This document shows positions 27,009-40,053 of a stretch of 64,000 nt of DNA, piece after piece (within the stretch, counting starts at the first letter, position 1; the number at the start of each line of letters is the position of its first letter). This stretch comes from an uncultured Sphingomonadaceae bacterium (GTDB lineage: Bacteria; Pseudomonadota; Alphaproteobacteria; Sphingomonadales; Sphingomonadaceae), in contig CANLCX010000002.1 of the NCBI GenBank assembly GCA_947489315.1, forward strand, positions 496,001 to 560,000, in the 5' to 3' direction. A model generated the notes under the pieces. That model was not told the DNA's origin. It did not search any database and saw only the letters and a list, made by a program, of their open reading frames with translations. The position numbers and the translations under genes are program-made.

Positions 27009-27935
27009 ATGCGGACCAAACAAACTCTAGCGATAACCGGTGCTACCGGTTTTGTGGGCGGACATTTGCTCAACCTCGCCGTGCGTGCCGGTTTTCCGGT
27101 TCGCGCCCTTACCCGCCGTACGCAGGATGACCGGCCGAACGTCACATGGGTGCGCGGCGCTTTGGACAATCCAGCTAGCCTCAGCGTGTTATGCACAGGG
27201 GCCGATGTGGTGATCCATATCGCCGGAGTGGTCAACGCACCTACCCGAGAAGGCTTTGAAACGGGCAATGTCGCCGGTACATTGGCCGTCGTCGAGGCGG
27301 CCAAAAAATCGGGGTGCAAGCGCTTCATTCATGTTTCATCGCTGGCCGCGACCCTGCCCAAACTTTCCATCTATGGAGAAACCAAAGCCAAAGCAGAGAA
27401 GATTGTGAAAAGCAGCGGGCTCGATTGGACGATCATTCGACCACCGGCCGTTTATGGACCTGGAGATGCCGATATGCTTGATGTCTTCAAAATGGCCAAG
27501 CTTGGCTTCATCAACCTGCCACCCAATGCTGATGGCCGTCTTTCAGCAATCCATGTAGACGATCTGGCGCGGGCCTTGATGACCATTATTCCCGAAAATG
27601 AAGATCTGACCACTGAAATATTTGAGGTAGATGACGGAAAAACTGGTGGCTGGACCCAAGCGAGCTTTGCCAAAGCCATTGGATGGGCGATCGGCAAACG
27701 AATCAAACCTATAGCGACACCAAAATTTCTTCTGAAACTTGGCGCTAAAGCGGATCGCCTGATACGCCGTGACAAGGCCAAGCTGACCGAGGACCGAGTG
27801 AGCTATTTCTGCCATGATGACTGGACTGTCGATCCCGCCAAGCGCTTGCCGCCCGAGCTATGGACACCGCAAATAGAGACGCGACAAGGGTTGAAAGATA
27901 CAGCCAAATGGTACCGACAAAATGACTGGCTCTGA
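27009..27935 (+). CDS. NAD(P)-dependent epimerase/dehydratase-type SDR, CerR-like candidate
   Basis: A 308-residue extended short-chain dehydrogenase. The nucleotide-binding motif is TGATGFVGGHLL. The catalytic Ser-Tyr-Lys region shows HVSSLAATLPKLSIYGETKAKAE, with YxxxK at YGETK. The substrate loop RPPAVYGPGD follows. It sits 24 bases after proB and 2 kb before acp-spt. In Caulobacter a reductase of this general class (CerR) acts in ceramide synthesis by reducing the 3-keto group. The size, fold and neighbourhood fit that role, but other nucleotide-sugar or lipid reductases cannot be excluded. Confidence 0.8.
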   Translation: MRTKQTLAITGATGFVGGHLLNLAVRAGFPVRALTRRTQDDRPNVTWVRGALDNPASLSVLCTGADVVIHIAGVVNAPTREGFETGNVAGTLAVVEAAKKSGCKRFIHVSSLAATLPKLSIYGETKAKAEKIVKSSGLDWTIIRPPAVYGPGDADMLDVFKMAKLGFINLPPNADGRLSAIHVDDLARALMTIIPENEDLTTEIFEVDDGKTGGWTQASFAKAIGWAIGKRIKPIATPKFLLKLGAKADRLIRRDKAKLTEDRVSYFCHDDWTVDPAKRLPPELWTPQIETRQGLKDTAKWYRQNDWL

Positions 27936-28004
27936 CGCCTCATAAAATCACTAGCTGCCACAGTCGTTTAACAAGCGCATGGTGATTGTCTGGGAGATGA
28001 TGTT

Positions 28005-29195
28005 ATGCAGAACAATGCTGCGGTGCGCGATGATGTACCGACCCACAATTTCGATATCTATGCCGAACCCGCGATCAAGATCGACGTGCATGATGCTTTT
28101 CTGGCCCTGAAAAAAGAAGCCCCTCCCTTGTTCTGGACGCCCGCCAATGGTGGGCATTGGATTGTGACCGACGGAGATATGATGATCGACTTGCTCCGCA
28201 AGCCCAATATCTTTTCAAACGAGAATTTTTCGATCCCTCATATTGAGAATATACCCAAGACCATTCCGCTATCACTCGATCCGCCCGAGCACCGCCCCTA
28301 CCGCCAAATGATGCGCCCGTTTTTTGAGAAAAAAGCGATTGCGCCATTGCAAGACCGGATACAGCAATGGGCCGACCGGCTTATCGGAGCGGTAAAAGCA
28401 GATGGGCAATGTGAATTTGTTGAAGCGGTGGGTTCGCGCTTTCCGGTATCGGTTTTCATGGAAATGCTCGGATTGCCGCTTGACCGCTTTGACGAGTTCC
28501 GCGCGCTGGTAAACGAAAATTTTGCTTTGGCCGGTACGCCGGATGCTGCGGTAGTTCAGCAGAAAATTGTCGCTATTCTCGCCGAATTTGTGAAAGTGCG
28601 ACAGGCCGATCCCCAAGACGATATGATGAGCCATATCATCCAATCCGACATTGATGGTCGCGCGCTTTCCTTCGAAGAACTGCTCTCTATCGCACATCTG
28701 CTGTTCCTTGCCGGCCTAGATACCGTGGTCAATGCGCTGAGTTTCAGCATGAAGCATCTGGCCGTAAATACGGCCCTGCAACAGCGGATTATTGATGACC
28801 CTGCCTGTATCCCCGATGTCACCGAGGAGCTGCTCCGCCGCTACAGTTTCGTCAACCTGCCCCGCCAAATCAACGAAGACACAATGCTTGGCGGGCAAAA
28901 ACTGTCCAAGGGCGAGAAGATTATCTGTCCGCTGGCAATGATCGGCTGGGAGGATAAACTCAACGAAGACCCCATGACCGTCTCGATCGATCGCAAACAT
29001 TATCGCCACGGCGCTTTTGGCTCCGGCATCCATACGTGCCTTGGACTGCATCTGGCGCGGATGGAGCTGCATATTTTCTATGAAACGTGGTTCCGTGAGA
29101 TTGGCAAATTTCAACTGCAGCCGGATAGACCGCAAGGTGCCATGCGCGGCGGCGTTGTGTGGGCGATTGAAGACCTATGGTTCCGCTGGGGATAG
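28005..29195 (+). CDS. Cytochrome P450
   Basis: A 396-residue bacterial class I P450. The oxygen-activating I-helix motif is LAGLDTVVNA, the ExxR is EELLRR in the K-helix, and the haem-binding loop is FGSGIHTCLGLHLARME with the ligand Cys at about residue 345. No dedicated ferredoxin or reductase is adjacent. GGGAGATGATGTT precedes the ATG. The P450 stands between the CerR-like gene and acp-spt, so hydroxylation of a fatty acid, a long-chain base or an isoprenoid is possible. The position alone does not prove a link to sphingolipids. Confidence 0.93.
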   Translation: MQNNAAVRDDVPTHNFDIYAEPAIKIDVHDAFLALKKEAPPLFWTPANGGHWIVTDGDMMIDLLRKPNIFSNENFSIPHIENIPKTIPLSLDPPEHRPYRQMMRPFFEKKAIAPLQDRIQQWADRLIGAVKADGQCEFVEAVGSRFPVSVFMEMLGLPLDRFDEFRALVNENFALAGTPDAAVVQQKIVAILAEFVKVRQADPQDDMMSHIIQSDIDGRALSFEELLSIAHLLFLAGLDTVVNALSFSMKHLAVNTALQQRIIDDPACIPDVTEELLRRYSFVNLPRQINEDTMLGGQKLSKGEKIICPLAMIGWEDKLNEDPMTVSIDRKHYRHGAFGSGIHTCLGLHLARMELHIFYETWFREIGKFQLQPDRPQGAMRGGVVWAIEDLWFRWG

Positions 29196-29197
29196 GC

Positions 29198-29722
29198 CTA
29201 GCCTTGCAATAACGGCCCGGTAAACTGCTCGGCAAGATATGTAACGAAGGTGAGCGAGAGGCCGAGCAGAAACACGCGGTAGGCAAGACCCAGATAACGG
29301 TATTTTTTGCGTTCCAGCACCAGACCCATTTGATAGATATCGCGCAACATGGTGCGATACACCGTTTCCTGATTCACGAAATTCTCGGTCAATAGCTTGT
29401 CCTTAAACTCGTCTTCCGATACTTTCGAAAACGCGCCGAAAAACAGCATGTTGGGATTGGCACCTGCCCGGATTTTGGTCGCTGGCATCACCGCAATCGC
29501 GGCCAGGCCGGCCGCGCAAAAAGCCGAAATCGCCAATATCAGTAACGGTAGCGAAAATGTGCTGGCATGGCTTTGTCCGATCGCCAATGTAAAAACCACA
29601 AAGGTGGCACCAATGAGCATGTTCGCTTTATGATCGGCCATCAGACTGAGCTGAACATGATGCTGCTGGGTCGTCCGCAGCAATTGGATGACTTCGTCCG
29701 GCCATTTTCGTTCTTCGGTCAT
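29198..29722 (-). CDS. Pycsar-effector-like (PycTM/DUF5706) membrane protein
   Basis: A 174-residue protein. The N-terminus HHVQLSLMADHKANMLIGATFVV fits the start of the PycTM/DUF5706 fold. Two membrane helices follow (MLIGATFVVFTLAIG and LPLLILAISAFCAAGLAAIAV), then a long charged cytosolic helix and a last helix LLGLSLTFVTYLAE. In Pycsar defence such proteins disrupt the membrane when bound by cCMP or cUMP. No pyrimidine cyclase gene is present here, so this may be a stand-alone member with another role. I chose ATG at 29722; the open frame extends upstream only as antisense of acp. Confidence 0.75.
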   Translation of the reverse strand: MTEERKWPDEVIQLLRTTQQHHVQLSLMADHKANMLIGATFVVFTLAIGQSHASTFSLPLLILAISAFCAAGLAAIAVMPATKIRAGANPNMLFFGAFSKVSEDEFKDKLLTENFVNQETVYRTMLRDIYQMGLVLERKKYRYLGLAYRVFLLGLSLTFVTYLAEQFTGPLLQG

Positions 29723-29909
29723 GCGTCGCCCTCCGCAAAAGCGCGACCCGATGCGTCCAAAGAGTGGCACAGTCGGCGCAATTGGGCAAGTTGCGGCCGA
29801 TAAACCCATGCTTGTGCCGCGTTTCGGCCTTATTCGCTTGCCAATGGGGGGATCATATTGGCAAAGGTCGCTTAGAGTGAAGCAGACCGGCATATTGGGG
29901 AATTGGAAC

Positions 29910-30155
29910 ATGGCAAGTCGCGAAGAAATTATGACTAAGGTTGAGGCTTTGATAGGCCCGTTCAACAACAAGGGCGTGGAATTGAAAGATGCGACGACCT
30001 TCGCCGGCGATCTGGAATGGGATAGCCTGACCGTCATGGATTTTGTGGCCGCTGTCGAGGATGAATTTGATATCATCATCACCATGAACATGCAGGCCGA
30101 AATTGAAACCGTTGGCCAATTGGCCGACGCCGTTGCCAAGTTGATGGATAACTAG
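29910..30155 (+). CDS. Acyl carrier protein, sphingolipid-associated
   Basis: An 81-residue acyl carrier protein. The phosphopantetheine site is Ser39 in LEWDSLTVMDFV, and the small acidic four-helix layout is typical. It is not the housekeeping fatty-acid AcpP, which would lie with fabD, fabG and fabF. It precedes the serine palmitoyltransferase gene by 99 bases, as in Caulobacter and sphingomonads, where a dedicated carrier supplies the acyl group for ceramide synthesis. I chose ATG at 29910 because the residues upstream look like non-coding sequence. Regulation together with spt is likely. Confidence 0.9.
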   Translation: MASREEIMTKVEALIGPFNNKGVELKDATTFAGDLEWDSLTVMDFVAAVEDEFDIIITMNMQAEIETVGQLADAVAKLMDN

Positions 30156-30254
30156 ACTGAATAGATAGTAATCCGGCTTTAGCACCTTTAGGCACCTTTT
30201 GTTTCATGGTGAAATGCTGAAAGACCGTTGAGAAAACGATAAGCAGAGAGTAAA

Positions 30255-31454
30255 ATGACCGACCTATTGAGTAAATTTGATCCGCTGATTCAGGAACGCG
30301 AGACTCTTCTCGCGACGGGCATCAAAGACCCGTTTTCGCTGGTTATGGAAGAAGTCAAATCACCCACTGTCGCGGTGTGCAATGGCAAAGAAACCATCCT
30401 GCTTGGTACCTATAATTATATGGGCATGACCTTTGACGATGATGTACGTGAAGCAGGCCTGACAGCACTTAAAGACTTTGGCTCTGGTACAACGGGTAGC
30501 CGGGTTCTCAATGGCACCTATAGCCCACACAGAGATTGCGAAGAGGCACTCAAAGAATTCTATAACATGGACCATGCGATGGTCTTTTCCACCGGCTATC
30601 AGGCCAATCTGGGAATTATTTCGACACTGGCTGGAAAAGGGGATTATGTCATCCTCGACATTGACAGCCATGCGTCCATTTATGATGGCTGTGCGATGGG
30701 CAACGCGGAAGTCGTTGCATTCCGCCATAATGATGTTGAGGCTCTGGAAAAGCGTCTGAAACGCCTCCCTGCCGAGGCTGGTAAGCTGGTTGTCCTCGAA
30801 GGCGTTTATTCGATGCTCGGCGATGTTGCGCCGCTCAAAGAAATGATCCGTGTTTGCAAGGAAAACGGCGCGATGACTTTGGTCGACGAGGCCCACAGCA
30901 TGGGCTTTATCGGCGACAATGGCCGCGGCGTTAGCGAAGCAGCGGGCGTGATTGACGACGTTGATTTCATCATCGGCACATTCAGCAAATCGGTGGGAAC
31001 CGTTGGCGGTTTCTGCGTCTCCAACCATCCCAAATTTGAAATCATGCGGCTGGTTTGTCGCCCCTATGTCTTTACCGCATCCCTGCCGCCCAGCGTGATG
31101 GCAACCGCCAGCACCTCTATCCGCAAATTGATGCACAGCGGTAACAAGCGCGCCCATCTTTGGGAAAATAGCAAAAAGCTCCACAAGGGCCTGCGCGGTC
31201 TGGGCTTTAAACTCGGCACACCGGAAGCGCAGAGCGCGATCATCGCGGTGATCATGCCCGATCTGGAGCGCGGCGCATTGATGTGGCAAGCGCTGCTCGC
31301 AGAGGGCCTTTACGTCAATCTGGCGCGGCCGCCGGCAACACCGGCCAATATGACTCTGTTGCGTTGCTCGCTATGTGCCGAGCACACGTCCGAACAAGTC
31401 GATCAGATTTTGGGCATGTTTGAAGCAGCTGGCAAAGCGGTTGGGGCGATTTGA
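30255..31454 (+). CDS. spt: Serine palmitoyltransferase
   Basis: A 399-residue PLP-dependent alpha-oxoamine synthase that condenses serine with a long-chain acyl thioester to 3-ketosphinganine, the first committed step of sphingolipid synthesis. It closely fits the soluble Sphingomonas enzyme: GTYNYMGMT, SGTTGSRVLNGTYSPH, LVDEAHSMGFIGDNGRG and the PLP lysine at about residue 245 in FSKSVGTVGGF. KBL and BioF paralogues lack this combination with a neighbouring acp. GCAGAGAG precedes the start. The enzyme acts in the cytoplasm and feeds the ceramide genes around it. Confidence 0.94.
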   Translation: MTDLLSKFDPLIQERETLLATGIKDPFSLVMEEVKSPTVAVCNGKETILLGTYNYMGMTFDDDVREAGLTALKDFGSGTTGSRVLNGTYSPHRDCEEALKEFYNMDHAMVFSTGYQANLGIISTLAGKGDYVILDIDSHASIYDGCAMGNAEVVAFRHNDVEALEKRLKRLPAEAGKLVVLEGVYSMLGDVAPLKEMIRVCKENGAMTLVDEAHSMGFIGDNGRGVSEAAGVIDDVDFIIGTFSKSVGTVGGFCVSNHPKFEIMRLVCRPYVFTASLPPSVMATASTSIRKLMHSGNKRAHLWENSKKLHKGLRGLGFKLGTPEAQSAIIAVIMPDLERGALMWQALLAEGLYVNLARPPATPANMTLLRCSLCAEHTSEQVDQILGMFEAAGKAVGAI

Positions 31455-31475
31455 TCCTCCACACGGGAGACAGAA

Positions 31476-32270
31476 ATGACTAACAGCCTGCTTATCGAAC
31501 AACGCGGCACCGTTGAAATACTCTCTCTCAACAGACCCGACAAGCTCAACACAATGAACGAAGACATGATCTTCGCCTTGCGGGAGTATTTTGAAGGACT
31601 GCAGGATCGACATGACGTCCGGGTCGTCTTGTTCCGAGCCGAAGGACGCGCCTTTTGTGCTGGCCTGGATATCGGCGCATGGAAGAATGATGGATCACGC
31701 GGACAAGTCCAGCATATCTGGCGGACGCAGCGCAGCATCGCCACGGTCATGCAATTTATGCGGCAATGCCCACAGCCGATTATCGCGCTCGGGCAAGGCG
31801 CAGCTTGTGGCGGCGGTTTCTCGCTGCTGCTCGCCAGCGATGTGCGTTACGGCGCGCCGAGCCTAAAAATGAACGCGGCCTATATCAAAATCGGCCTCGG
31901 CGGATGTGATATGGGGTCGAGCTATTTCCTGCCGCGACTGGTCGGATCATCACTCGCATCAGAGCTGCTCTTGACGGGCCGCTTCATTCATGCCGAACGC
32001 GCCGAAAAGCTCGGCTTGATCAGTGAAATGGTTGCCGAAGACAAGCTGCTCTCTACCGGCTTATCGTTAGCCGAGGAAATGCTCGACACCGCGCCAATGG
32101 GTCTGCGGCTGACCAAGGATGCGCTCAACCGCAATATCGATGCCCAAAGCTTTGAAGCCGCAATGGCGATTGAAGACCGGCAGCAGGTCATGCTGAGCAT
32201 GACCGAAGATAGCCGGGAAGCGGCAAAGGCCTTTTTCAGCAAACGGAAACCGGACTATAAAGACCGGTAA
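31476..32270 (+). CDS. Enoyl-CoA hydratase/isomerase family protein
   Basis: A 264-residue crotonase. The start LNRPDKLNTMNEDM, the oxyanion-hole element AFCAGLDIGAW and the second signature QGAACGGGFSLLLASDVRYG mark the family. The position usually held by the first catalytic Glu is not obvious (LGGCDMGSSYFLPRLVG), so it could be a hydratase, an isomerase or a hydrolase. It follows spt by 21 bases and probably shares its transcript. It ends directly against the convergent cupin gene. A role in trimming or tailoring the acyl chain is possible. Confidence 0.88.
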   Translation: MTNSLLIEQRGTVEILSLNRPDKLNTMNEDMIFALREYFEGLQDRHDVRVVLFRAEGRAFCAGLDIGAWKNDGSRGQVQHIWRTQRSIATVMQFMRQCPQPIIALGQGAACGGGFSLLLASDVRYGAPSLKMNAAYIKIGLGGCDMGSSYFLPRLVGSSLASELLLTGRFIHAERAEKLGLISEMVAEDKLLSTGLSLAEEMLDTAPMGLRLTKDALNRNIDAQSFEAAMAIEDRQQVMLSMTEDSREAAKAFFSKRKPDYKDR

Positions 32271-32666
32271 TTAGCGATCGCGATGCTCGGTGCCCTGCCC
32301 AGCTGTAATAAACAATGCTGATGCTTCACCATCAATATCGGCGGTATGCCAAACACCGGGAGGATTGATCGCATATTCTCCTTCACCGAGTGTAATTTTC
32401 TTCTCTGATCCGTCAGGCATTTCCTGAATGAGCGATATTTCGCCCGTCGTACACATTACGACTTCTGATCCCACAGGATGCATTTCCCAGACAGTCCATG
32501 GCTCACTAAATTGGTGTAGCGAAACCAATCGCCCCTCTGCGCCATCGTCAGCATGACGTTCGGCATAAGCCTGATACCAGGCGGGATCACCCGTGAAATG
32601 CGGTTCGGAAAATGCCGTGGCTCCCAGGCCTAAATGGATCGGATTACCGGATAGATTATCGGCCAT
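32271..32666 (-). CDS. Cupin-domain protein
   Basis: A 131-residue single-domain cupin. The core reads WEMHPVGSEVVMCTTGEISLIQE and GEGEYAINPPGVWHTADI, giving two conserved cupin motifs with His and Glu as possible metal ligands. No catalytic partner is visible. The gene abuts the convergent enoyl-CoA hydratase gene with no gap and follows the Tam41-like gene on the same strand by 37 bases. It could bind a small ligand or act as a dioxygenase-like enzyme. Function unknown. Confidence 0.83.
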   Translation of the reverse strand: MADNLSGNPIHLGLGATAFSEPHFTGDPAWYQAYAERHADDGAEGRLVSLHQFSEPWTVWEMHPVGSEVVMCTTGEISLIQEMPDGSEKKITLGEGEYAINPPGVWHTADIDGEASALFITAGQGTEHRDR

Positions 32667-32703
32667 ATCAACTCCTCCTCAATATTCCGGAGTGCAGGTT
32701 ATC

Positions 32704-33606
32704 CTATTTTATCGCTCCAGCGGAAATTAATCGCGGAAGCATGGTGATCGCACCCAATATCGGCCATTTGCGCTGCCAAGGCTTGATCTCATAATTGGTG
32801 CCAGCATGGCGGTTAATCTTCCACGCGAGATAGTCGATTCCACCGGCATAGGTTCCGGAGGCCTTGGCCAGGCGCGCCAATGTCAGAAGCTTGCCGTTGC
32901 GGCGGAGCGTCTTCCAGCGCTTCGTGGCCTCTTCAAAAGATAGCTCGGAGGATTCTGATACATCTTGATCCTGCATCGTCGCCATCGTCGCAAGTCCAAA
33001 GCGCTGATAGCGATCCAGATCCGCATCGACCACCGAACCCGGGCGATTGGTTCGCTCGGCCCGCAATTCTGCGCCATAGGTCAGCTCAAAGCCGCGATGG
33101 AATATTCGGATAGGCGTTTGGGGTTGGATACCTAGCACCGGCAATGCGAGTTCAAACAAGGTCAGCGGCGCGCGCGCAATCGCCGCCACTATCTTGTCTT
33201 TGGCCGCTTTGTCCGCACACCAAACCAGCCGCGACGGCTGCGCAAAACGCGCCCACACACTCACCGCGCTTGCTTCCGGCCCATTGAGCCTGTGAAAATC
33301 TTCTTCACTCAAAACGGCAATTTTGGCGACGAGACCATCATGTTCGGCTGGAAACACATTGGGCGGCAATAATTTATTCGCGCGCACGAGCCAGCTTTTG
33401 CCATAAGCCGCTTCATAGCTAGAGACGATCAAGTAGAAATCGAGCATCTGCCCTTCGAGCTCGGTGGTTCGGAGACAAGACCCGTAAAAGAGCACCGCGC
33501 GGGAAGCATCACCATATTGCGCCGCAATCGAGGCCGCAAAGGCAGCCACACACGGTACAACTGGCTCAGCCAGTTCCGCTTCTACAAGGGGTTCAAGGTA
33601 GTTCAC
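32704..33606 (-). CDS. Tam41-like nucleotidyltransferase (CTP:phosphatidate cytidylyltransferase family)
   Basis: A 300-residue soluble protein. Near residue 40 the nucleotidyltransferase motif LFYGSCLRTTELEGQMLDF matches the GS...D pattern of the Tam41/Mmp37 family. Further family-like stretches are AKIAVLSEEDFHRL, VWARFAQPSRLVW and RGFELTYGAELRAERTN. Tam41 makes CDP-diacylglycerol from phosphatidate and CTP in mitochondria. Here it sits 15 bases after the lipid kinase gene on the same strand, within the sphingolipid locus. Activation of a phosphorylated ceramide or lipid with CTP is my inference. Housekeeping CdsA is an unrelated membrane enzyme. Confidence 0.65.
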   Translation of the reverse strand: MNYLEPLVEAELAEPVVPCVAAFAASIAAQYGDASRAVLFYGSCLRTTELEGQMLDFYLIVSSYEAAYGKSWLVRANKLLPPNVFPAEHDGLVAKIAVLSEEDFHRLNGPEASAVSVWARFAQPSRLVWCADKAAKDKIVAAIARAPLTLFELALPVLGIQPQTPIRIFHRGFELTYGAELRAERTNRPGSVVDADLDRYQRFGLATMATMQDQDVSESSELSFEEATKRWKTLRRNGKLLTLARLAKASGTYAGGIDYLAWKINRHAGTNYEIKPWQRKWPILGAITMLPRLISAGAIK

Positions 33607-33621
33607 CCGTTGGATGATAGC

Positions 33622-34596
33622 CTAAGCAGCGAGGCGAAGGAAAGACACTGGTTTGGTTGATTTCAAAACAATCGGCTGACCTTCTTCTGCCCGGAATAAT
33701 TCGCCGTCCATCACGACATTGCTATTCTTGCCTTCAATGCGGATCATATCACCTTGCTCCAGGTGGATACCCTTTTGTACGTTTTTACCGAGACGACCAA
33801 ATAAAGCAGATACTATGAAGCGAACCAAAGCCGCCGGCTTCTGATCAATCGCCATAAGTTGCAAACGCCCGCGTTTTCCGCCCGACCGAGTCAAGCGGCG
33901 CATTAGCAATAGCTTTTCCAGCGTCGTGACGATCAAAATCGCGAAATTGCCTTGATATTGGCCCTTTTTGATGAGCGAAATACTAATCGGCGATGGCCGA
34001 TTTGGCAGGAACTTCGCTCTTACACCAAATAATACCGAAGCCAGAGCTGCAAATACCGTGAGAACATGAGAAGCCGCATTGGGCAGGCCCAAAGGATAAA
34101 TCTTGTGCCGACAATAAAGTATGAACTCCGACAGGCCTGCTCCACCGAGGAACATGCCGAGTACGACTTTGCTATCCTTGCCACCGTCCGAAAGAGCGAT
34201 CAGTTCGCGATCAACCAGATGTTCGTGCAAATCATGCTTGGCCATTTCGACAATGCGTTCCAGCGCCTTTAGCGGATTGCCTTCCGCGCCCAGATCCAGC
34301 GCGATTAAATTGGTTTTTCCATTAGGTAAAACGGCAACCGGCGGTGGGTTATCACCAAAATGCCCACCCTGATGCAATTCCGTGAGAGCGGCTTGGACAG
34401 TACCATCACCGCCATTGATCACCAGCACCTTGGGTTTTACTTTTGCTATAGTTTGCAGCGCTTTGGTAATCTCATCAACATCGTCGACTTCATAATGGAA
34501 AACATCACTGTTTTTGACGCAATAAGAGCGCACTTCCGGTAATATCGCACGATTACCCGTGGAGTGTGGATTCGAAAGTAGCGCTACATTGGCCAT
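33622..34596 (-). CDS. DAGK-family lipid kinase, ceramide-kinase-like candidate
   Basis: A 324-residue LCB5/DAGK-fold kinase. The nucleotide-binding signature GGDGT is at residues 62-66 (VINGGDGTVQAAL), with PVAVLPNGKTN and the C-terminal lipid-site GELFRAEEGQPIVL. It would phosphorylate a lipid hydroxyl with ATP at the inner membrane. In Caulobacter a kinase of this class (CpgB) phosphorylates ceramide in the anionic sphingolipid pathway. The location beside a Tam41-like gene and 2 kb from spt fits this. YegS-like diacylglycerol kinase activity is the alternative. Confidence 0.78.
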   Translation of the reverse strand: MANVALLSNPHSTGNRAILPEVRSYCVKNSDVFHYEVDDVDEITKALQTIAKVKPKVLVINGGDGTVQAALTELHQGGHFGDNPPPVAVLPNGKTNLIALDLGAEGNPLKALERIVEMAKHDLHEHLVDRELIALSDGGKDSKVVLGMFLGGAGLSEFILYCRHKIYPLGLPNAASHVLTVFAALASVLFGVRAKFLPNRPSPISISLIKKGQYQGNFAILIVTTLEKLLLMRRLTRSGGKRGRLQLMAIDQKPAALVRFIVSALFGRLGKNVQKGIHLEQGDMIRIEGKNSNVVMDGELFRAEEGQPIVLKSTKPVSFLRLAA

Positions 34597-34631
34597 TATT
34601 TAATTGCCCGTTTCCCCGTAATATCTGCCCA

Positions 34632-35114
34632 TCACAGATATTTCATTTTGATATTGATCGACTTCACTTCATTGCCCACCGCAAATTTAGTCTTCTTGTA
34701 ACTGGGCTTGCCCAGGTTAAATATATTGATGCTCGGATTGTTCGACATGCCACCGCCGTCGGACCTGATATCGGTCTTGCCATTGCCGTTCACGTCGTGA
34801 CGCACAGCAATACCATAGGTTCCACTAGTTGGGACCGGCACACAAAAGGTCATGCTGTTGCTTTTTGCTGGCGCTTCAATACGGGTAATCCACGCACCTT
34901 TCTTTAGCCATTCGGCCTTGGTTCCCCGATAGCTCTGCACCCGAATTTTACCCGACGATGCCTTGACACCACTGAGTTTCACCAACACAGCAGGACCATT
35001 ACCGGACCGGCATTTATTTAAATCATTGGAGATTTTCTGTCCCGCGGTTGTCGCAGAAACAGGAATAGCCAAAAGAGCGGCTGAAAGCGCAAAAGACGCT
35101 GCAAATTTCAACAT
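34632..35114 (-). CDS. DUF2141 secreted protein
   Basis: A roughly 160-residue protein with a signal peptide (FAASFALSAALLAIPVSA) and a DUF2141 domain. The signature is GTYGIAVRHDVNGNGKTD followed by GGGMSNN. The calcium-loop-like DVNGNGKTD resembles EF-hand-like sites. A pair of Cys (NKCRSG and TFCVP) may form a disulfide in the periplasm. I selected ATG at 35114 so that the signal peptide starts the protein. It lies 35 bases before the kinase gene on the same strand and diverges from the LptF-like gene. A periplasmic lipid-handling role is possible but untested. Confidence 0.8.
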   Translation of the reverse strand: MLKFAASFALSAALLAIPVSATTAGQKISNDLNKCRSGNGPAVLVKLSGVKASSGKIRVQSYRGTKAEWLKKGAWITRIEAPAKSNSMTFCVPVPTSGTYGIAVRHDVNGNGKTDIRSDGGGMSNNPSINIFNLGKPSYKKTKFAVGNEVKSINIKMKYL

Positions 35115-35238
35115 GACGAAAATACTCCCAGTCGTTATACCCGCGTTCAAACTGCGGCGGATAAAGAATCAGTTCTCAATATAAATATGGTTATGGGAAT
35201 GATTTGCGGCAGAAACATGGTGAGAGGGCGACGATAAA

Positions 35239-36450
35239 TTGAAATTATTGACTTCCACTGACCGTTATATCGCCCGTTTGATCGCCGTTCCGCTGTTTAG
35301 CACGCTGGTAATCGCCGCGATGTTGCTCGTGCTTGAGAAGATGCTGCGGCTTTTCGATTTTGTTGCTGCCGAAGGCGGCCCGGTCAGCGTCGTTTGGCGA
35401 ATGCTCGCTAACCTCATCCCGGAATATCTGTCATTGGGCATTCCGATCGGCCTTTTGCTGGGCATATTGCTGGCATTTCGAAAGCTGTCTCTCAGCTCGG
35501 AATTGGATGTTTTCAGGGCAGTTGGCCAAGGTTACGCCAGATTATTAAAAGTACCTTATATGTTTGCGGTCGCCCTGATGCTGGTCAATCTGGCATTGGT
35601 TGGTTTTATCCAACCGCTATCTCGCTACTATTATGAGGAACTGCGCTTTGAATTGCGGTCTGGCGCGCTTGGAGCTTCGATAAAAGTTGGTGAATTTACC
35701 AATTTGGGGGCACGGATGACGATGCGGATCGAAGAAAGTCGCGACAATGGGACAAAATTGGGAGGCATGTTTGTTCGGGCAGAGAATAAATCCGGGCAGA
35801 TCGTCTCGGTAACCGCTGAACACGGGCAATTTCTCGCCACTGACGATCCCGACACGATCATTTTACGTCTCACACAAGGCGTTCTGATCCACGATGCCCC
35901 AAATTATGAGAAACCCCGCATATTGAGCTTTAGCAGCCATGATTTGCCCATAGATCTGCCCGATATCGAATCATTTCGATCAAGGGGTGGGGAAGATCTG
36001 GAATATACCATTCCAGAGCTAGTAAGGGTTGGAATGGATTCAAAACGCCCGTTGGCAGAACGCAATGAGAGCCGGGCAAATTTCCACTACCGGATGGTCG
36101 AAGTGGTAATGATGCTTCTCATGCCTCTTTTGGCGCTGGCTCTAGCGATTCCGCCTAAAAGGTCGAATTCTGCGCTGGGCGTGTTTGTTTCGATCGTCAT
36201 GATTGTGACCTATCACAAGATCAACCAGTATGGAGAAGATCTCGGTGCGCTTGGCATTGTGGACCCCATCATTGCTCTATGGGTTCCGTTCTTTCTTTTC
36301 GGCGGCTTGATCCTATGGATGTACCATATGATTGCACATGTTCCCGGCGGGCAGCCCATTGGGGCGCTAGAAAAAGCTTTCTCGAAATTTGGCGGCGTTT
36401 TCAAAGGGCTGCTAAATTTCAATCGAAAGCGCGCTGATGTTCAGGAATAG
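35239..36450 (+). CDS. lptF: LptF family permease
   Basis: A 403-residue LptF/YjgP family protein. Three N-terminal membrane helices (LIAVPLFSTLVIAAMLLVLEKM, YLSLGIPIGLLLGILLAF, PYMFAVALMLVNLALVGF) are followed by a periplasmic beta-jellyroll domain (about 130-265) and three C-terminal helices starting FHYRMVEVVMMLLMPLLALALA. LptF pairs with LptG and the ATPase LptB to pull lipopolysaccharide from the inner membrane. A TTG start at 35239 is used. Sphingomonads often replace LPS with glycosphingolipid, so the cargo here may be a sphingolipid. The ATPase is elsewhere. Confidence 0.88.
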   Translation: MKLLTSTDRYIARLIAVPLFSTLVIAAMLLVLEKMLRLFDFVAAEGGPVSVVWRMLANLIPEYLSLGIPIGLLLGILLAFRKLSLSSELDVFRAVGQGYARLLKVPYMFAVALMLVNLALVGFIQPLSRYYYEELRFELRSGALGASIKVGEFTNLGARMTMRIEESRDNGTKLGGMFVRAENKSGQIVSVTAEHGQFLATDDPDTIILRLTQGVLIHDAPNYEKPRILSFSSHDLPIDLPDIESFRSRGGEDLEYTIPELVRVGMDSKRPLAERNESRANFHYRMVEVVMMLLMPLLALALAIPPKRSNSALGVFVSIVMIVTYHKINQYGEDLGALGIVDPIIALWVPFFLFGGLILWMYHMIAHVPGGQPIGALEKAFSKFGGVFKGLLNFNRKRADVQE

Positions 36451-36489
36451 GTATATGAGCGAAAACTTCATGAACGGGGATGCTGACCG

Positions 36490-37578
36490 ATGAATTTCTT
36501 CCCGTCAAAGACACTGGCTTTTTACATGGCCAAGATGTTGATGATACGCACTTTCGCTGTGCTGGCTATGCTGGTGTTAGTTTTACAGGCTCTTGATTTG
36601 CTCGGCGAAAGCGGACGCATCATGGCGCAAGAAGGCAATGGCCAAGGAGAGCTTTGGACCTATGTGAGCCTACGCGCGCCACAATTGGTGGCACGTTTTC
36701 TCCCTTTCGCGGTCTTGTTGGGAACGATTATCACCGCCGCCACGCTGAACCAAAATAGCGAAGTCGTGTCCATGAAAGCCGGAGGACTATCAGCGCATCA
36801 AATCCTAGCGCCGCTGATCATTGCCAGCATGTTTGTAGCAGTCATTTCATTTCTGTTTAACGAGATTGTGGTTGCCCCCTCGACAGCCCGGCTTTCGGCA
36901 TGGGAGAAAGTCGAATATGGACCAATTCCGGTCGCCAGCAACGTCCGCACCAATGTCTGGGTCCGGGATGGCAACAATCTGATCAATGCCAAAACAGTGA
37001 CCGGGAGTGGCGACGATGTGTTGCTACAGGATATCACTATTTATGACCGCGCCGATAACGTCCTGCGCAGCCTCATGCAGGGTGAAGAGGCACGATATAG
37101 CGGCTCAGACTGGACGATGACCGGCGTGACCCAATTTAATGTGCGGACTGGCACGGAAGCAAAAAAAGACAGTGTTTTGTTGAGCGATAGCTTGCGGCCA
37201 GACCAATTTACGCTGGCTAACGTCAACGCCGAAGGACTATCCTTCATGCAGCTAAGATCCGCCATAGCCGAATTGAAAGAAGCAGGCCGACCGACTATGG
37301 GTCTGGAATCAAGTCTGTGGCACAAAATTTCCGGACCTTTATCGTCCATTTTAATGCCCTTGCTTGGGGCTGTTGCAGCCTTTGGTCTCGCGCGGTCCGG
37401 GCAACTTTTTGTTCGTGCCGTTATTGGCATGGCGCTAGGTTTCGCTTATTTTGTAGCCGACAACTTCTCGCTCGCCATGGGTACTATCGGCGCCTATCCG
37501 CCAATATTGGCGGCCTGGGCCCCGTTTATGCTATTCTTCCTAATTGGTGAAACAGTGCTTATCCGAACCGAAGAATAA
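36490..37578 (+). CDS. lptG: LptG family permease
   Basis: A 362-residue partner of LptF with the same fold: helix 1 FAVLAMLVLVLQALDLL, jellyroll from about residue 135 (NVWVRDGNNLINAKTV) and C-terminal helices (HKISGPLSSILMPLLGAVAAF, GMALGFAYFVADNFSLAMG). Together with LptF it forms the lateral gate that accepts the lipid. The gene begins 39 bases after lptF and is translated in the same direction. No lptD, lptC or lptB gene follows; the next gene is a convergent desaturase. That context differs from the common lptF-lptG-lptD order in alphaproteobacteria and supports a sphingolipid cargo. Family call firm, cargo inferred. Confidence 0.9.
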   Translation: MNFFPSKTLAFYMAKMLMIRTFAVLAMLVLVLQALDLLGESGRIMAQEGNGQGELWTYVSLRAPQLVARFLPFAVLLGTIITAATLNQNSEVVSMKAGGLSAHQILAPLIIASMFVAVISFLFNEIVVAPSTARLSAWEKVEYGPIPVASNVRTNVWVRDGNNLINAKTVTGSGDDVLLQDITIYDRADNVLRSLMQGEEARYSGSDWTMTGVTQFNVRTGTEAKKDSVLLSDSLRPDQFTLANVNAEGLSFMQLRSAIAELKEAGRPTMGLESSLWHKISGPLSSILMPLLGAVAAFGLARSGQLFVRAVIGMALGFAYFVADNFSLAMGTIGAYPPILAAWAPFMLFFLIGETVLIRTEE

Positions 37579-37580
37579 GC

Positions 37581-38708
37581 TTAGTTGGGTGTCCCTGGCT
37601 GAGTAGAAGCGGCATGACCGGAACTTCCTCGTACCAGTCCAGCAACCAAACCGAACAGGCTGGTATGATTAGCGCGATAGTAGGTCGAGCCCTTTGGGAC
37701 AGCTTCTGCAATGCGGCGATGTGCCTCACCCAGCGCGTGATAAGGAACACCGGGCAGCAAATGGTGCAGCGCATGATAACGCAGGCCCACGGGTGCCCAC
37801 AATGCTGGTAGAAGGCCTGGTGGCGGAACATTGACGCTGTCGAGATATTGTTCTGTCACACTCATGACGTCACCGTCATTTTCCCACAAATGAGCGACCA
37901 GCGTCCGAATCTGATTGAGCACAACGGAACCCGCTGCAATCGCAACTGCGATCAGAAATGCTTTCATTGGCAGAAATCCAGTCGCTACTGCGACCAGCAA
38001 ACCGATCGCCCAGATACTGGCTGCGATTTCCTGAGCATACCATTGCCGCTTAAACTCTCCTTCAGGTGAGCGACGCCGAAACTCGGGGTTTATAACCAAT
38101 CCAGAATAGCGCTCCACTACAAGCTTCCGCAGTGGTGGGATAACCGCAGATAGTGGCGCAAGCAACGCGTAACGGATAAACAATCCAATTGGCGCCAATG
38201 CCGATACCAACACGAAAAGCGGCACCGTATAAGGCTTCATGAGGGCCAACGGCAGATATTCTGGATCTTCGATCGTGCCATAGCGCTTCCGCATGTGATG
38301 AAGGTTATGGACACCTTCATACATAAATGATGGCAACAATAGCGGCACCCCGATCAACGCATTCCAAGCGAAGTGGAAACCCGGCATGGATCCGCGCCGA
38401 ATATGGGTCAACTCATGAATGAAGCTCCCCGCACGATAGAGCGCGAGAACCGAAATAATCGCGGCCAGAACCGCCAAGCCATTGTTTTCAACCATGATCG
38501 CAGCGACCATTGCGCCATATCCAATCACGGTAGAAGCGAGCAAATCCGACCAATAAATAACTGGACGTACGGCGTTGAGGTCTCGTGTGACCTTTGCCGC
38601 CGTGCGGATTAACTCATTGTCATCAAAGGGTTGAGCTTTTGCGGCATCAGCAGCAAAACTATCCGTCGACATGGTGGCATCTGATGCCTGGGGAAGAGAA
38701 TGTTGCAT
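37581..38708 (-). CDS. Membrane fatty-acid desaturase family protein
   Basis: A 375-residue membrane di-iron desaturase. The three histidine boxes are HELTH (about residue 97), HNLHH (about 134) and HALHH (about 312), surrounded by four hydrophobic stretches. AGGAA lies upstream of the ATG at 38708. It converges with lptG (2-base gap) and diverges from the ceramide-synthase-like gene. Desaturation of an acyl chain or long-chain base of a sphingolipid is plausible, since sphingomonad long-chain bases carry unsaturated or cyclopropane groups. General phospholipid desaturation or carotenoid hydroxylation are alternatives. Confidence 0.88.
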   Translation of the reverse strand: MQHSLPQASDATMSTDSFAADAAKAQPFDDNELIRTAAKVTRDLNAVRPVIYWSDLLASTVIGYGAMVAAIMVENNGLAVLAAIISVLALYRAGSFIHELTHIRRGSMPGFHFAWNALIGVPLLLPSFMYEGVHNLHHMRKRYGTIEDPEYLPLALMKPYTVPLFVLVSALAPIGLFIRYALLAPLSAVIPPLRKLVVERYSGLVINPEFRRRSPEGEFKRQWYAQEIAASIWAIGLLVAVATGFLPMKAFLIAVAIAAGSVVLNQIRTLVAHLWENDGDVMSVTEQYLDSVNVPPPGLLPALWAPVGLRYHALHHLLPGVPYHALGEAHRRIAEAVPKGSTYYRANHTSLFGLVAGLVRGSSGHAASTQPGTPN

Positions 38709-38862
38709 AAGTTCCTGTCTTCGTAATCTGGTGCCTACAGCAAGACATCATGGCGAGATGATGGCATTGCTATGGTTTCTTGCGCTAACCCGCAGCACCG
38801 CCGCGACGGGCTCCAATGCTTGACATCTTGGCCTGATTAACGCCACAGAATGAAAAAGCTAA

Positions 38863-38893
38863 GTGCAAATAACCACTTAAAAGGTGCAAATAA
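38863..38893. promoter_or_regulatory. Direct repeat GTGCAAATAA x2 at the start of the ceramide-synthase-like gene
   Basis: The 10-base sequence is at 38863-38872 and again at 38884-38893, a 21-base period (two helical turns). The second copy contains the GTG used as the start codon. It lies in the 175-base divergent region between the desaturase and the acyltransferase, so it might be an operator for both. Confidence 0.35.
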
Positions 38894-40053
38894 TTACAGT
38901 GTCTTCTGATATAATCATAAAACCGGTCACCACCAAGGCCCAGCTAAAGAGTTTCGTGGAACTAGCCTATCATTTATACGCAAGCGACCTCCATTGGGTC
39001 CCGCCGCTAAAATCAGAAGTTTATGCGCTGCTCAATCCTAAGAAAAATCCTTTCTTTGAACATGCTACAATGCAACTCTTTCTGGCTGAGAAAAATGGCA
39101 AGACGGTGGGTCGGATTAGCGCACATATTGATCATCTGGCACTGGAACAGCCGGCGGAAAAAGGCTTGGGGCCCGGTACGGGCAGTTGGGGGTTGTTAGA
39201 AGCCGACAATGAAGCGATCATGACGACGTTGATTGATGCAGCTGAAAAATGGCTAAAAGAGCAAGGCATGCATCGCGTAATTGCACCACTGAGCCTATCC
39301 GTCTGGGACGAACCGGGCCTATTAACCACCGGCCATGATCATAGTCCGACGGTAATGATGGGGCATCACAAGCCAGAATATCAGGGCTGGATTGAGAGTG
39401 ACGGATATACAAGCGTTAAAGAGCTCATTACCTATGATTTGCGTATAGATAACGGCTTACCACCACTAATCGACAGGATCGTCAAATCCGGCGAACGCAG
39501 CAGCAAGCTCAAGATACGCAAGGTCGATAAGTCGCATTTTGACCGCGATGCCAAAATCATCATGGATATTCTCAATGATGCGTGGTCGGACAATTGGGGC
39601 TTTGTTCCGCTGACGGATAGCGAGATTGACCATGTTGGTGTGAAGTTGAAACCGATTGTCTATGAAGACCTGATCATGATCGCAGAGCTGGAAGGCAAAC
39701 CTGTAGCTTTTTTGATGACACTGCCCGATCTCAATGACCGTACCAAGGGTATGAAGGGCAGTTTGCTGCCGTTTAACTGGGCAAAACTGCTCTGGTGGCT
39801 GAAATTTCCCAAATCTCGGACCATGCGCGTGCCGCTCATGGGCGTGGTAAAGGAATTGCAAAACAGCCGGATGGCCAGCCAGATGGCCTTTATGATGATC
39901 GAATATATCCGCCGGGAAGCGGTTGCAAAATATGGTGCAACGCGAGGCGAACTCGGCTGGGTTTTGGAAGATAACCAAGGAATGGTCGCTATCGCCGATG
40001 CCATCGAATCCAAGGTAAACAGGGTTTATACGCTTTACGAAAAGGCGATCTAA
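38884..40053 (+). CDS. Bacterial ceramide synthase (bCerS)-like N-acyltransferase, GNAT fold
   Basis: A 389-residue soluble or membrane-associated protein. It opens with VTTKAQLKSFVELAYHLYA, then LHWVPPLKSEVYALLNPKKNPFFEHA and VGRISAHIDHLAL, a combination typical of the family annotated as dATP pyrophosphohydrolase/GNAT and shown in Caulobacter to contain bacterial ceramide synthase. The C-terminal half has the GNAT-like GELGWVLEDNQGMVAIADAIE and a closing KVNRVYTLYEK. It would N-acylate the amino group of 3-ketosphinganine or sphinganine. GTG at 38884 starts it; GTG at 38899 is an alternative. Eukaryotic ceramide synthases are unrelated. Confidence 0.8.
   Translation: MQIITVSSDIIIKPVTTKAQLKSFVELAYHLYASDLHWVPPLKSEVYALLNPKKNPFFEHATMQLFLAEKNGKTVGRISAHIDHLALEQPAEKGLGPGTGSWGLLEADNEAIMTTLIDAAEKWLKEQGMHRVIAPLSLSVWDEPGLLTTGHDHSPTVMMGHHKPEYQGWIESDGYTSVKELITYDLRIDNGLPPLIDRIVKSGERSSKLKIRKVDKSHFDRDAKIIMDILNDAWSDNWGFVPLTDSEIDHVGVKLKPIVYEDLIMIAELEGKPVAFLMTLPDLNDRTKGMKGSLLPFNWAKLLWWLKFPKSRTMRVPLMGVVKELQNSRMASQMAFMMIEYIRREAVAKYGATRGELGWVLEDNQGMVAIADAIESKVNRVYTLYEKAI

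Follow-up and report, generated by a model that had tools for sequence, protein, structure and literature searches.

Gene content of the locus

We analysed a 64,000-nucleotide stretch of DNA (hereafter the window) from an uncultured Sphingomonadaceae bacterium (GCA_947489315.1; genome of 3.88 Mb, estimated completeness 100%), in which sphingolipid-type genes, a pair encoding LptF and LptG included, are packed into 13 kb at positions 27009-40053. A profile search returned two LptF_LptG matches in the genome, both within this cluster, and LpxC, the sole lipid A gene searched for, was not found there. A sole, sphingolipid-associated Lpt permease in a genome (and mostly also in an order) without LpxC is the new and testable point of our study; that it carries sphingolipid is what we infer.

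All the genes named in a first-pass annotation of the window were found here by family matches. Its description of the locus as dispersed is fair: the genes are split over both strands in several blocks, and therefore do not form one operon. The genes that we assign to the cluster are as follows.

27009..27935, plus strand: CerR-like short-chain dehydrogenase/reductase (SDR), in the position of Caulobacter cerR/epi upstream of acpR-spt; Epimerase 2.3e-25; homologs in 92/105 spt loci
29916..30155, plus strand: acpR-like sphingolipid acyl carrier protein (ACP), 79 aa; PP-binding 2.5e-9; homologs in 105/105 spt loci
30255..31454, plus strand: spt, serine palmitoyltransferase (SPT); above the cut-off of the alphaproteobacterial SPT equivalog NF047603 (790 vs 670 bits)
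32704..33606, minus strand: Tam41-fold nucleotidyltransferase (NT), candidate CC_1161 counterpart and putative CDP-ceramide former; conserved motifs, fold match to Tam41
33622..34596, minus strand: DAGK-family lipid kinase, candidate ceramide kinase (CC_1160 counterpart); DAGK_cat 1.1e-14; homologs in 43/105 spt loci
34632..35114, minus strand: DUF2141 protein, signal-peptide-like N-terminus (by eye), recurrent cluster member; PF09912 6.6e-23; 30/105 spt loci
35239..36450, plus strand: LptF, sphingolipid-associated type, the genome's only LptF; NCBIfam LptF equivalog, genome search, trees
36490..37578, plus strand: LptG, sphingolipid-associated type, the genome's only LptG; NCBIfam LptG equivalog, genome search, trees
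37581..38708, minus strand: FA_desaturase-family protein, candidate ceramide acyl hydroxylase or desaturase; PF00487 3.2e-29
38884..40053, plus strand: bCerS-like N-acyltransferase; weak GNAT match 3.5e-5; homologs in 79/105 spt loci

The locus counts come from profile searches of 105 spt loci, the window included, in which LptF/G was matched in 70, NT in 48 and the desaturase in 11. These loci are no census: one search that contributed to them retained the best 80 of 583 confirmed loci, and many are short contigs. Four loci were left out, as L071 and L077 repeat L026 and L025 and the SPT frame of L054 and L055 runs to the end of the stretch.

Putative ceramide synthesis genes and a distant AasR candidate

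The spt gene is preceded by the ACP gene, a position that suggests a dedicated role for this carrier, and genes for a putative CerR/Epi-like reductase and a putative N-acyltransferase are both present. An acyl-ACP synthetase had been reported as missing, yet a candidate AasR lies on another contig (C3:76062-77747; 44% identity over 560 residues and 470 bits, the next best match scoring 60). The 20-kb stretch around it matched none of nine cluster families. A gene similarly distant from the cluster has been described for Sphingomonadaceae (Padilla-Gomez 2022, PMC9386255). The AasR query was the protein adjoining cerR-acp-spt in a Caulobacter locus (L124, Caulobacter sp. HMWF025), called AasR-like by position. 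By eye, that locus reads LptC-like, flippase-like and AasR-like genes, then cerR, acp and spt, with no NT, kinase or LptFG match within 10 kb. The desaturase gene adjoins LptFG or the acyltransferase elsewhere in the family (for example L027 and L061-L063) and lies beside spt in the distant L016.

Conservation of gene order and published counterparts

Window proteins were compared (tblastn, E 1e-4) with 26 loci, each about 19-20 kb long; 10 belong to the window's family and 16 to other families of its class. Two loci of family f29 (L011 and L012; SPT 52-54% identical) repeat the series SDR-ACP-SPT, opposite-strand NT-kinase-DUF2141, LptF-LptG and acyltransferase, and further loci hold partial versions of it. 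Gene order, which the first-pass annotation had proposed comparing, is thus kept in distant alphaproteobacteria, and the lack of conservation that it had named as refuting its proposal was not seen. Linkage is also visible across the order: in 51 of 127 genomes no more than 20 kb separates lptFG from spt, where random placement, ignoring relatedness, would give about 1.6. The 51 genomes span 13 of 37 genera, and the count uses one listed LptF/G place and one SPT place for each of the 127 of 197 genomes that have both.

Sphingolipid clusters of this kind have already been described in Caulobacter and Sphingomonas wittichii, with orthologs also for Hyphomonas, in the relevant passages of PMC11324152 and PMC9386255. 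The Caulobacter crescentus region CC_1152-CC_1168, as described in part of PMC11324152, shares spt, acpR, cerR, the acyltransferase, the ceramide kinase, CC_1161 and a second LptF/LptG pair with the window. Its numbering also runs as the window does, in a comparison of gene numbers rather than of CC_ sequences (cerR 1164, acpR 1163, spt 1162, 1161, kinase 1160, LptF2 1156, LptG2 1155, cerS 1154). Unlike that region, the window has a desaturase-family and a DUF2141 gene inside the cluster, and its genome has the aasR candidate elsewhere, no LpxC match and no second LptFG pair. In S. wittichii RW1, Swit_3897-Swit_3908 covers 12 gene numbers (epi 3897, acpR 3899, spt 3900, aca 3908) with aasR distant at Swit_2559, and parts of the two papers describe its ceramide, CPG2 and transport genes as scattered over the genome. 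Neither sole-LptFG status nor a link to loss of lipopolysaccharide (LPS) is mentioned in their passages on S. wittichii (PMC9386255, PMC11324152).

One LptF/LptG pair and no LpxC match

LptF and LptG pass the NCBIfam equivalogs for the LPS exporter (241 and 301 bits), so annotation alone would call the pair LPS export genes; these models do not separate an LPS type from a sphingolipid-associated type. The pair belongs to the same sequence family as the LptB2FG LPS exporter (PDB 6mhu, 6s8g) but is of a separate type among the alphaproteobacterial pairs compared and sits in a genome where LpxC was not found.

This situation is mostly that of the order. LpxC was found in 0 of 197 genomes of the order by the same search that found it in 129 of 153 genomes of the class. 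LptF/G was matched in 195, with exactly two genes in 179 and three to five in 16, as counted by eye from the listed matches; the two genomes without a match (G008, G031) have a completeness of 95-96% and consist of 160-370 contigs. LptD was found in all 197; where its neighbourhood was read, the gene adjoins apparent surA, pdxA and rsmA genes. The SPT model was likewise matched in 197 of 197 (149 over the cut-off), although these include weak matches (G013, 2.8e-71) that are possibly related enzymes. The loose first search behind these counts scored at most nine LptF/G, eight SPT and 11 NT candidates per genome, and misses are possible, chiefly for NT. Order, family and class are used here as kinship labels; the order includes Emcibacter (L140), placed by NCBI in Emcibacterales, and is presumably the wider GTDB order.

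In the class sample of 153 genomes, SPT was counted at E <=1e-140, a cut-off chosen after the SPT survey of the order. All five genomes with both SPT and LpxC carry four LptF/G genes. SPT without LpxC was found in 15 genomes, 14 of which carry two LptF/G genes and one (G236) none. The 124 genomes with LpxC and without SPT carry two copies in 111 cases, four in 4, three in 4, one in 4 and none in 1, and the nine with neither carry two (5 genomes) or none (4 genomes). Among LpxC-positive genomes, four copies thus go with SPT (5/5 vs 4/124; Fisher 5e-7), and SPT in turn goes with absence of LpxC (Fisher 7e-11); both tests ignore shared ancestry. The 20 SPT-positive genomes represent 14 families, 10 of them LpxC-negative, with three genomes from the window's own family, and four of the 24 LpxC-negative genomes (G313, G319, G321, G346) were identified by elimination.

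Two types of LptF/LptG

LptF and LptG sequences were joined for phylogeny. From 209 frames, three shorter than 250 aa were dropped, four loci had one frame only (L108, L113, L147, L149), and the resulting 101 pairs became 99 after removal of two duplicates. In the 99-pair tree, 14 pairs from genomes with LpxC and without SPT fall together with one pair each of G306, G274 and G342 (hereafter LPS-type pairs), and the window pair, like each of the 24 pairs sampled from the order, groups with pairs linked to sphingolipid genes. A 75-row tree, which omits the 22 pairs of a gammaproteobacterial and Nitrospirota group as well as L013 and L150, places the 17 LPS-type pairs on one side of a fully supported branch and the 25 order pairs opposite. 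The same split had 100/100 support in a 40-row bootstrap tree, and forcing the order pairs together with the 17 LPS-type pairs cost 74 log units and was rejected (approximately unbiased (AU) test, p 0.0005); this test used 40 hand-picked rows, the simple model LG+G4 and groups named once the first tree was known. Consistent differences between the types (17 vs 60 rows, 75% cut) fall in nine alignment columns of LptF and four of LptG. The window pair does not group with LptFG of genomes that have LpxC and no SPT.

Two pairs first labelled unlinked, L033 (G298) and L036 (G342), fall on the sphingolipid side of the tree; L036 lies on a 3.6-kb contig. A wider stretch around L033 (L160) places it beside NT, kinase and acyltransferase, and in G253 (L159) the pair has the same neighbours; both genomes have LpxC and SPT, with spt on another contig. 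The third group in the tree comprises 22 spt-adjacent pairs, mostly of Gammaproteobacteria and Nitrospirota, on a long branch adjacent to the LPS-type pairs. It takes in pairs from spt loci of Nitrospirota, of Gammaproteobacteria and of a Calditrichota metagenome-assembled genome (L085, L092, L095, L098, L101-L103, L132, L133, L141 and others). Among these, L133 comes from a metagenome-assembled genome titled Klebsiella pneumoniae, a label that is probably wrong; its LptFG groups with uncultured gammaproteobacteria.

Neighbourhoods of the LptFG pairs

Fourteen pairs of the order (L051-L064, with L064 read over a wider stretch as L165) were picked irrespective of spt linkage or because spt was distant. 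A cluster gene (kinase, NT, DUF2141, desaturase or acyltransferase) was nearby in 14/14. Ten order pairs chosen for spt linkage, and the window, also had a sphingolipid-cluster gene in the stretch. Among LPS-type pairs of genomes with LpxC and without SPT, cluster genes were found in 0/9 stretches of 20 kb, which gave one weak ACP match (L171; 40 bits vs 71-111 bits in spt loci), and in 0/5 stretches of 5-6 kb, which gave one 32-bit SDR match (L050). Outside the order, the spt locus was read in 16 of the 17 SPT-positive genomes of the class (not in G342), and LptFG lay within the same 20 kb in 13 of the 16. The first-pass annotation had counted LptFG as part of the set; we would add that the genome has no other LptFG and that LpxC was not found in it.

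Candidate head-group genes and DUF2141

The NT had been called Tam41-like, a label that is supported in fold and not by family models: it has no Pfam match of its own (PF09139 Tam41_Mmp37 included) and no NCBIfam match, and Tam41_Mmp37 is matched by 1 of 19 aligned relatives, the window protein among the 19 (9.8e-7). Its AF2 model (pLDDT 90.5) has mitochondrial Tam41 CDP-DAG synthase as best PDB match (6ig4, E 1.5e-5, TM ~0.5; also 6ig2), followed by aminoglycoside nucleotidyltransferases. The two proteins differ in that identity to Tam41 is only 12-15%. In the alignment of the 19 relatives the YGS.L motif is conserved and DFY nearly so, with the YGS, D and K positions invariant. The kinase gene usually adjoins NT in spt loci. 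Of the order's 197 genomes, 137 gave an NT match in a loose search that may have missed some; nearly every genome of the order has the export pair, whereas the NT branch does not seem to be so widespread. Four genomes of the family (G004, G097, G136, G179; loci L027, L028, L068, L066) keep SDR-ACP-SPT-LptFG-desaturase-acyltransferase with NT, kinase and DUF2141 unmatched in the locus, and G004 and G097 have no NT match anywhere in the genome.

Kinase and Tam41-fold NT together suggest a route from ceramide via ceramide-1-phosphate to CDP-ceramide. By position, together with family for the kinase and Tam41 fold for the NT, the two may be counterparts of CC_1160 and CC_1161. CC_1161 carries a CDP-DAG-synthase-like domain according to part of PMC11324152, where an NDP-activated ceramide formed via CC_1161 is proposed (Olea-Ozuna 2024); the CDP-ceramide route is support for this published proposal and not a new idea.

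The DUF2141 gene recurs, usually next to the upstream end of LptF or directly ahead of the acyltransferase. In an alignment of 36 rows, C91 and D107 are invariant, with C35 (>=90%) and H106 nearly so, giving a conserved cysteine pair C35/C91 and an HD-N-NGK stretch. The latter resembles a metal-binding loop. The fold did not indicate a function: the model (pLDDT 89.7) matched no PDB entry below E 0.001 and gave just weak hits to beta-rich folds. Our literature search, which covered few subscription papers and no bioRxiv preprints, found no paper combining DUF2141 and sphingolipid. From its position we guess that the gene is the counterpart of CC_1157; if so, an essential role is spoken against, because no high cofitness is reported for CC_1157 in the passages on it (PMC11324152).

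Proposed export of sphingolipids by a second type of Lpt permease

The first-pass annotation had proposed that synthesis, head-group activation and outer-membrane export are covered in one place. Its observation is confirmed, and its interpretation is partly to largely supported and largely in print already; family matches and the conserved neighbourhood agree with it, the functions being predicted from the genes. We consider it rather probable that the locus represents, in a sphingomonad, an old cluster for sphingolipids shared with other alphaproteobacteria, in which a sphingolipid-type LptFG would export the sphingolipid and the enzymes would have the corresponding substrates. SPT, fed by a dedicated ACP charged by the distant AasR, would form the keto base, and acyltransferase and SDR would complete the ceramide. 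The kinase would convert ceramide to ceramide-1-phosphate, which the Tam41-fold enzyme would probably activate as CDP-ceramide. The finished sphingolipid may then leave the inner membrane via LptF/LptG and reach the surface over the Lpt bridge and LptD. Two pairs are present in the five sampled genomes where SPT and LpxC occur together, and one in the window genome and in most sampled genomes of its LpxC-less order.

Our preferred reading of the LptF/LptG pair is a sphingolipid-type Lpt permease of old origin that survived the loss of LPS and of the LPS permease and would transport sphingolipid. We lean, by a little, towards a broader proposal, namely that in LPS-less Sphingomonadales the Lpt machine is dedicated to exporting sphingolipid and is driven by an ancient second-type LptFG, whose possession would have permitted LPS loss in several alphaproteobacterial families. 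The LPS permease would have gone with lipid A, the sphingolipid permease would have inherited the shared bridge and LptD, and DUF2141 may be a periplasmic accessory.

Several observations weigh against sphingolipid export by this pair. G236 (5.4 Mb, one contig) has SPT, SDR, ACP and acyltransferase, and neither LpxC nor LptF/G was found in it; sphingolipid genes can therefore occur without LptFG. (The spt locus of G236 is L021, at G236:C1:1499500-1519400; G313, of the same family, keeps the LptFG pair.) Conversely, four class genomes with LpxC and without SPT have four LptF/G copies and four have three, and the one pair read in each of G209, G276, G294, G310 and G333, which belong to this group, had cluster genes within 20 kb in 0/5. 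Five genomes with neither SPT nor LpxC carry two LptF/G genes, and the 1e-140 cut-off may miss divergent SPTs. Within the order, the listed lptFG does not lie within 20 kb of spt in 76 of 127 genomes, and three to five LptF/G matches occur in 16 of 197 LpxC-less genomes (four in G002, G047 and G053, five in G066). These 16 narrow the statement on the order and leave the window genome, the trees and the neighbourhoods untouched, and therefore do not change our confidence. Lastly, NCBIfam labels both proteins as LPS exporters.

That label would be expected if the pair were an ordinary LPS-type exporter, kept by chance or reused after LPS loss, with incidental sphingolipid neighbours. The equivalog scores fit such an exporter, but the pair lies outside the 17 LPS-type pairs with full bootstrap support and a firm AU rejection, and the order pairs not chosen for linkage all have sphingolipid-cluster neighbours, against none of the nine LPS-type controls at 20 kb; we regard this explanation as quite improbable. 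The pair could also export another envelope lipid or a lipid-linked glycan that co-occurs with sphingolipids, the cluster being a general outer-membrane lipid island. G236, the extra LptFG of some LpxC-positive genomes without SPT, and a pair that is near-universal in an order where NT is not would all suit that idea. It does not, however, account for a copy number that tracks SPT among LpxC-positive genomes, nor for the locus shared by the pair and spt in 13 of 16 SPT-positive genomes outside the order, and we think it unlikely.

If the permease does carry sphingolipid, as we favour, it bears on a question that is open in print, the route of bacterial sphingolipids to the outer membrane. Flippases or lipid transporters for them are described as not yet identified in part of one paper (Uchendu 2024, PMC11087976), and Lpt homologs have been proposed for sphingolipid transport in another that did not itself study transport (Olea-Ozuna 2024, PMC11324152). 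LPS blurs the question in Caulobacter. An LpxC-less order with mostly a single LptFG, sphingolipid-associated wherever placed in the tree, makes it directly testable, since any Lpt function that proves essential in such an order should be something other than LPS export. A possible explanation for LPS loss in a Gram-negative lineage follows as well. Within the scope of the same literature search we found no published link between LPS-less Sphingomonadales and a sole sphingolipid-type LptFG.

Probable passenger genes

Four further genes lie among those of the cluster.

28005..29195, plus strand: cytochrome P450, probable passenger; p450 6.3e-22; 0/26 loci
29198..29725, minus strand: PycTM-domain membrane protein, probable passenger; PF18967 1.9e-22; 3/26 loci (L029, L030, L070)
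31476..32270, plus strand: enoyl-CoA hydratase family, probable passenger; ECH_1 2.8e-45; found in L069 (78%, close) and L024 (27%, weak) among 26 loci
32271..32666, minus strand: small cupin, probable passenger; Cupin_2 1.6e-6; 1/26 loci (L070)

P450, cupin and hydratase had been listed as members of the locus. Found in none, one and two (one at 27%) of the 26 loci, respectively, they are poorly kept and were set aside as pathway genes; together with the PycTM gene they are probably passengers or recent additions. P450 matches adjoin SDR in three gammaproteobacterial loci (L132, L133, L142; 27-28%), and may be superfamily matches. The PycTM gene, absent from the earlier gene list, sits between P450 and ACP. 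PycTM is a Pycsar effector domain, and the similar genes in L029, L030 and L070 also lie upstream of ACP.

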